Shown: positions 43,219 through 51,201 of the stretch, one piece after another
Position numbering within the stretch: position 1 is the stretch's first letter
Layout: each line of letters opens with the position of its first letter
NCBI RefSeq assembly: GCF_009910705.1
Contig: NZ_JAAAXJ010000008.1
Location: forward strand, 1 to 64,000
DNA: 64,000 nt
Source of the DNA: Microvirga arsenatis
GTDB lineage: Bacteria; Pseudomonadota; Alphaproteobacteria; Rhizobiales; Beijerinckiaceae
Direction of reading: 5' to 3'
The notes under the pieces: model-generated
Told to the model about the DNA's origin: nothing
The model's input: only the letters and a program-made list of their open reading frames with translations
Databases searched by the model: none
Translations under genes and position numbers: made by a program

Positions 43219-44511
<1,293 letters not shown>

Positions 44512-44530
44512 CGCTTGAAACCCTCACATG

Positions 44531-44557
44531 AAAAAGCCCCGGCGCAAGGCCAGGGCT
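44531..44557 (-). terminator. Intrinsic terminator between orphan unit and purA
   Basis: On the minus strand AGCCCTGGC pairs with GCCGGGGCT (one G-U) around CTTGC, followed by five T residues at 44535-44531. It ends 19 bp before the purA start. Confidence 0.85.
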
Positions 44558-44944
44558 GGGTCAAAAACCTTGCAAACCCTCATGGTGGATCACGCGCCTC
44601 AGGTCAAGGCGGAATGAGCCCTGCACCCCCGCATCATAGGCATCCGAAAGGCGGGAATGTGGTTTTCCACTGCCGCGTCGAAGATCCAGCGCCTTCGGGC
44701 CCGCAGCGTGAGCTGCGAGCCGTCAGGGTTGCTCGAGGGTGGCGCTTGGGGCAGCCCGGCTCGATGGGGGATGGTGGTGAGTGTGAGAGCCAAGCTGCTC
44801 GTCACGCGCGGTTCTTTTCAGGCGGACCTGGAACAAGCCAGGATCGGCCTCCCGCGACCACAGGTGTGCGAGACCTGCGGCGGGACCGCGCCCCGTCCCG
44901 CATCTGCGACGCCTCGCGAGCGCGCCCCTCACCGGACGAGGATG
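44531..44944 (-). other. Orphan transcription unit of unknown content (possible SOS sRNA or small protein)
   Basis: Roughly 414 nt bounded by a consensus promoter with LexA-type operator (44951-44994) and an intrinsic terminator (44531-44557), all on the minus strand. No reading frame in it has a recognisable domain. The best small frames are GTG 44932 to 44723 and GTG 44805 to 44599 (68 codons, reasonable third-position GC), but neither has a clear ribosome site. It does not resemble RNase P RNA, tmRNA or SRP RNA in the conserved stretches I know. Confidence 0.5.
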
Positions 44945-44950
44945 AGCCAT

Positions 44951-44994
44951 GATATAGCCCAGCTTAGAGCAACTGTCAAGAACAAAGTAAGAAC
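44951..44994 (-). promoter_or_regulatory. LexA-type operator abutting a consensus promoter
   Basis: On the minus strand GTTC-TTACTTT-GTTC (44994-44980) matches the alphaproteobacterial LexA box GTTC-N7-GTTC. It is immediately followed by -35 TTGACA (44979-44974), a 17-bp spacer and -10 TATATC (44956-44951). LexA binding there would block the promoter until DNA damage. Confidence 0.7.
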
Positions 44995-45013
44995 ATAAAA
45001 ATACGCCTTCCCA

Positions 45014-51077: not shown

Positions 51078-51201
51078 GTGATCCATCCTTTCAGATGGGC
51101 GCCTCTCGGTGGGGAGAGGTGTCCCGCCGACCGGTATGACGGAGGCGGAGCGCGCGGTCAAGGCGACAATGGGCTGATCTGTCGTTGCGGCAGGAAGGCA
51201 G

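Follow-up and report, generated by a model that had tools for sequence, protein, structure and literature searches.

What does a LexA-type promoter control when no recognised gene follows it? This question is raised by a locus on the minus strand of a 64,000-nt stretch of Microvirga arsenatis DNA (hereafter the window), in which a GTTC-N7-GTTC operator directly precedes a promoter. The first-pass annotation had described an orphan SOS-type transcription unit that runs from this operator to an intrinsic terminator about 414 nt further on and would encode a DNA-damage-induced small RNA or small protein. The array of GTTC-N7-GTTC adjoining TTGACA-17 bp-TATATC is indeed present on the minus strand, with the following elements:

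44980..44994, minus strand: LexA-type operator GTTC-N7-GTTC, from the sequence and the conservation of its half-sites
44974..44979, minus strand: −35 element TTGACA, abutting the operator, from the sequence
44951..44956, minus strand: −10 element TATATC, 4/6 against the consensus at 17 bp spacing, from the sequence

The operator of the window copy reads GTTC-TTACTTT-GTTC (44994-44980), and TTGACA follows at once. A 22-base pattern spanning operator and −35 occurs once in the 64-kb window with up to three mismatches and in none of 100 shuffles. The description of the promoter as well formed applies to the perfect −35 but not to the −10, which matches TATAAT at four of six positions and at which a sigma-70 scan demanding a final T reported no promoter. 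Transcription would start near 44944 on the minus strand.

The downstream boundary of the unit had to be redrawn. A DNA search across 61 genomes split the proposed unit into a repeat (approximately 44996-44677) and a separate block belonging to purA (44667-44518), so that the unit as first drawn is a composite of these parts:

44677..44996, minus strand: a member of the dispersed RNA gene family, spanning operator, promoter and RNA body, with repeat boundaries from 89 aligned copies and an RNA-body model match at 44822-44955
44518..44667, minus strand: purA leader block, separate from the repeat, from the DNA search of relatives
44531..44557, minus strand: intrinsic-terminator-like hairpin inside the purA leader, from a scan and the conservation of the leader
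43219..44511, minus strand: purA, adenylosuccinate synthetase (Pfam PF00709, E 2.3e-175)

The terminator does exist at 44557-44531 (the same scan yields 0.7 such sites on average in shuffles), but it belongs to the purA leader, since Microvirga genomes conserve the purA block that contains it whether or not they carry the element upstream. A single unit running from the operator to the purA terminator was rejected because the leader is conserved independently and, in a crude scan, only one other copy of the element has such a site at a comparable distance. By eye, a GCAAGG in the purA leader upstream of the terminator can pair with the CCTTGC of the latter, which suggests attenuation of purA. 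A SorX match at 44530-44590 (21.5 bits for a cut-off of 46.6) is weak, falls on the purA terminator and was discarded. Elsewhere in the window, a serC leader RNA (RF00517) lies at 51078-51129 on the minus strand.

The repeat part, of about 320 bp, is no orphan. In the DNA search it matched at least 10 places in its own genome and recurred in many congeners. The operator/−35 pattern GTTCTYACTTTGTTCTTGACAG, with up to three mismatches, was found at 26 places in the M. arsenatis genome and at none for the reversed control, and an RNA-body model (R2), which begins within the −10 and holds neither operator nor −35, recovered the identical 26 loci from 150 candidates scored. One type accounts for 24 of these copies; the other two (L045 and L051) are longer, have a different core loop, and do not enter the type I profile or the identity counts below. 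The longer subtype, seen also at L226, L237 and L239, has the core GAGGGACGCGCCCGAGGCGTCGG and likewise stands behind a GTTC-N7-GTTC operator. Duplicates were removed from the sets of copies aligned for the repeat boundaries and for the identity counts. Over GTDB genomes, the operator/promoter pattern was found in at least 103 stretches, all from Microvirga among the matches listed. In two assemblies with few contigs (G342 and G351), exact pattern matches (26 and 19, respectively) were all on contig C1 and none elsewhere. A crude scan detected a terminator-like site inside the element in 0/26 own copies, the 3′ intrinsic terminator of a typical sRNA thus being found in none, and a site 350-700 nt further on only for the window copy and L056. 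With no such site at its end, the element does not define where the RNA stops on the 3′ side.

The position of the window copy, 165 nt from the purA start codon on the same strand with the terminator in between, and the recurrence of the element next to purA in a number of species would fit an action in cis, with SOS transcription entering the purA leader and altering purA expression. We consider this explanation unlikely given that other Microvirga have the purA leader with no element in the upstream stretch examined, and that the other copies adjoin other genes, the next gene lying on the opposite strand for about 8 of the 26 according to rough gene calls. At the window site transcription may run through into the purA leader, but this cannot be the general role of the family.

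The nature of the product was addressed by aligning copies from many genomes, which outlined the following RNA elements:

44891..44941, minus strand: helix P1, 44941-44934 pairing with 44898-44891, strongly covarying and enclosing P2, from covariation
44906..44930, minus strand: P2 hairpin with the near-invariant core GAGGGGCGCGCTCGCGAGGCGTC, from alignment and fold
44846..44887, minus strand: P3 (GGTCCC pairing with GGGAGGCC) and its inner hairpin P4, from covariation and fold
44742..44807, minus strand: P5/P6 stem, 44807-44804 pairing with 44745-44742 and 44794-44787 with 44762-44755, from RNAalifold on 50 representative copies
44698..44721, minus strand: P7, a covarying 3′ hairpin followed by no T run, from RNAalifold and the terminator scan

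In a plain MAFFT alignment of 59 copies (A1, without the second-subtype rows L045, L226 and L237), 94% of the pairs in three helices are standard, and 99 double-change cells were counted versus 41.6 in shuffles, none of which (0/500) reached that value; slid controls gave at most 31. In A1, 10 pairs had double changes, a count that 17 of 500 shuffles also reached. An alignment of 42 copies including other families (A2), fitted to the structure, gave 100 double-change cells versus 27.2 in shuffles (0/500), with double changes in all eight P1 pairs, and 14 of 500 shuffles reached the same number of such pairs. For both alignments the covariation score was equalled in 0/500 shuffles, and slid controls scored far lower. 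The full-length fold of 50 type I representatives comprises 47 pairs, 96% of them standard and 15 with double changes, including the 3′ hairpin; P3 and a helix formed by 44889-44886 and 44811-44808 overlap and cannot both form. The folding energy of the single window sequence is unremarkable (z −1.38, with 16 of 200 shuffles folding equally well), and folding energy alone was set aside as uninformative (z −1.38 and −0.61). The covariance search suggested for this locus thus turned up covariation of the RNA type in its relatives, which strongly supports a structured, strongly covarying RNA as the predicted product. The earlier statement that nothing known lies behind the promoter holds against Rfam 15, in which no family matched at the gathering score (window and 20 own loci) and nothing relevant matched at relaxed thresholds (window; 10 loci).

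The other half of the earlier proposal, a small protein, did not survive the same alignments. LexA control combined with multiple copies resembles TisB- and Ibs-type loci, and the element could on that ground be an SOS-induced leader or type I toxin-like gene whose transcript encodes a peptide. In the alignment of 89 copies, however, the two columns at which ORFs most often start, with 80 copies apiece, lie in the operator/−35, upstream of the presumed transcript start, and the next (69 copies) leads to ORFs of 27 different lengths. The two frames singled out by the first-pass annotation are not conserved either: the one at 44932 begins with GTG or ATG in 26/89 copies, and the one at 44805 with GTG in 52/89, its 45 ORFs of at least 12 amino acids showing 30 different lengths. 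No conserved short ORF of the kind expected for a TisB-like type I toxin was found in the 89 copies; we rejected the small protein and consider a peptide-encoding transcript very improbable.

We then come to the operator itself, which was predicted to be kept in close relatives if the unit is real, and it is. For the best match per genome of a second RNA-body model (R1) in 30 Microvirga genomes including our own, taken from the 38 genomes of the genus that gave a match, a perfect GTTC-N7-GTTC was present in 30/30, with 16 different spacers and at 63-68 nt from the RNA core. R1 excludes the operator, but some of its training copies came from operator-containing queries, so that more distant matches could differ; the own-genome result, with 26 loci under R2, is free of that limit as to number. 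In a second set of 34 loci fetched by DNA search, the operator was present in 31, and the RNA core was not found in the other three. The first-aligned copies were chosen by the operator pattern and their operators are not counted as evidence. Fixed half-sites around a drifting spacer are the pattern predicted for a direct-repeat LexA operator. The same box precedes the lexA match by about 65 nt and the recA match by about 144 nt in the own genome, which thus shows the features of a LexA regulon, with the operator abutting the promoter at 26 loci and recurring at lexA and recA. The own genome contains 172 GTTC-N7-GTTC matches versus 105 for the reversed control, and the 26 family operators would therefore be a large part of the genomic excess. 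Because the LexA reading of the operator is drawn from sequence, another regulator might recognise GTTC-N7-GTTC. This is hard to reconcile with the box at the genome's own lexA and recA, or with its identity to the established LexA motif described for alpha-Proteobacteria in the accessible text of PMC3323433 and for Caulobacter in that of PMC12700426, and we regard it as highly unlikely. A LexA-type operator ahead of an RNA gene is in our view strongly supported, and LexA binding, transcription and SOS induction would follow at these loci.

The distribution of the RNA extends beyond that of the operator. R1 matches, own genome included, were obtained in 50 of 397 genomes of the family, representing 5 of 43 genera; 12 of these genomes are not Microvirga, and six of the 12 (genera g36 and g53) are marginal, with E values of 4e-4 to 9e-4. 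At the level of the order, R1 matched 6/297 genomes and R2 13/397, most with several copies, and among 385 genomes drawn across the class R2 matched the own genome only; per-genome copy numbers in all of these surveys, and in the DNA search of 61 genomes, are lower bounds. Among the same-genus genomes listed, 38 of 45 carry the RNA, and the genus can evidently do without it, as 7 of 45 gave no match under strict filters. These matches describe an RNA family with a patchy distribution in Hyphomicrobiales. GTTC-N7-GTTC was found at none of the copies from other genera in two sets, 0/13 and 0/19 (the latter leaving out L346), for a total of 27 distinct copies. The operator thus seems to be an acquisition of Microvirga, and since the same RNA exists in other genera without it, a whole gene family has apparently been rewired to LexA. 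At several loci of other genera (L321, L324, L336, L337, L339, L340, L343 and L345), a recurring upstream motif close to TTATCCCCGCC takes the place of the LexA-type operator.

The family also has an unusual history. A synteny search of related genomes, of the kind first suggested for the window locus, showed that 15 of the 26 own copies are matched in another sampled Microvirga by a copy lying between the same pair of flanks, and with one exception the orientation agrees; the remaining 11 have no two-flank partner among the loci sampled, the comparison having covered fetched loci only. For 26 of 26 syntenic pairs, which involve 12 own copies and only partners present in the identity alignment, the own copy shows higher identity to its paralogues in the same genome (G000; mean 0.893) than to its syntenic counterpart (0.794), a value near that of non-syntenic cross-genome comparisons (0.787). 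The own copy was the closest G000 copy to its syntenic partner in 3/26 pairs. Homogenisation is not complete, however: in 19/26 pairs the identity to the syntenic copy lies slightly above the cross-genome average. Orthologues at the purA site are closer than average in two comparisons (G011/G006, 0.861; G035/G016, 0.821), and some genomes show low identity among their own copies (G025, 0.762; G003, 0.795; G026, 0.688). Judged from these identities, concerted evolution of the family within the genome is strong but not complete.

Such a dispersed, many-copied sequence could instead be a non-autonomous mobile repeat, MITE-like or mosaic, that carries a LexA-type operator and a promoter by chance and has no RNA function. 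By eye, the copies often adjoin other short repeats (CTCTCCCGC...GGGGAGAGG upstream and GTCATCCCGGA...TCCGGGATC downstream, in the flanks of L031-L056), and in other genera several copies are found at the ends of contigs, a usual position for long repeats. We nonetheless judge this origin improbable: inspection of the ends by eye revealed no terminal inverted repeat, 15/26 sites are common by synteny, and base changes are compensatory. In G095 (genus g60), moreover, the RNA bodies of two copies agree at 99% over 321 nt, counted from near the transcript start, with different promoters in front. A phage or plasmid origin was rejected, as the 23-base core has no exact match in viral contigs and the element has no match in PLSDB plasmids.

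Our preferred interpretation, to which we assign a probability of roughly 0.78, is that the locus belongs to a family of LexA-repressed, multi-locus structured noncoding RNA genes, with 26 copies and an RNA of about 270 nt, probably under SOS control in Microvirga. LexA bound to GTTC-N7-GTTC, abutting the −35, would hold the promoters off until DNA damage leads to RecA-stimulated loss of LexA, whereupon some 26 dispersed promoters would fire at once and produce very similar RNAs in large amounts. Many of the copies are old, retain positions that other Microvirga genomes share, and are homogenised within the genome; gene conversion would be the simplest cause, and RecA-driven recombination in the same response may be what homogenises them. 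An action in trans through the fold is favoured since substitutions in the helices are compensated whereas a few motifs in loops and core do not vary, and the large dose together with a fold kept by compensation suggests stoichiometric binding, for which a protein is our favoured partner; that the RNA binds protein in bulk, as a scaffold or sponge, is speculative, and we would not bet on it at even odds. Less favoured alternatives to protein binding are regulation by base pairing and a role that is selfish or purely structural.

Several known systems share individual traits with this family. HEARO/omega RNA and other mobile-element RNAs are about 300 nt long and exist in many copies; the Microvirga family differs from them by the lack of such an Rfam match and by its shared syntenic sites. 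Genes for rRNA are likewise dispersed and kept alike by concerted evolution, but the Microvirga family has no rRNA match in Rfam, carries a LexA-type operator and yields no match in some congeners. We know of no dispersed bacterial small-RNA family, outside rRNA and tRNA, with so many copies, shared sites and within-genome homogenisation. The enterobacterial tisB/istR and symE/symR systems resemble it in having a LexA-controlled promoter and an RNA-level component; they are, however, single-copy toxin/antisense loci under LexA, unlike the large, structured RNA in 26 copies with no conserved ORF described here. SymE/SymR is presented as a toxin/antisense locus in the accessible text of PMC1891008. 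Rhizobial sRNA families such as SmelA075/SmelA099 also occur in several copies per Rhizobiales genome, and the two to four similar hairpin modules attributed to SmelA075/SmelA099 in the accessible text of PMC3927594 set them apart by description; the passages concerned make no mention of LexA. Among the open-licence papers searched, we found nothing on an RNA family of this kind.

An observation that was partly right has thus led to what appears to be a multicopy, concertedly evolving RNA family behind a LexA-type operator, with no Rfam relative found. Tentatively, and with the odds against us, we propose a new class of noncoding RNA with about 26 loci that evolve in concert as rRNA genes do, whose promoters would all have been acquired by LexA in one genus and whose damage-released burst would titrate or scaffold a damage-response protein. 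Such a family would offer a testable system in which SOS control, RNA function and gene conversion come together.
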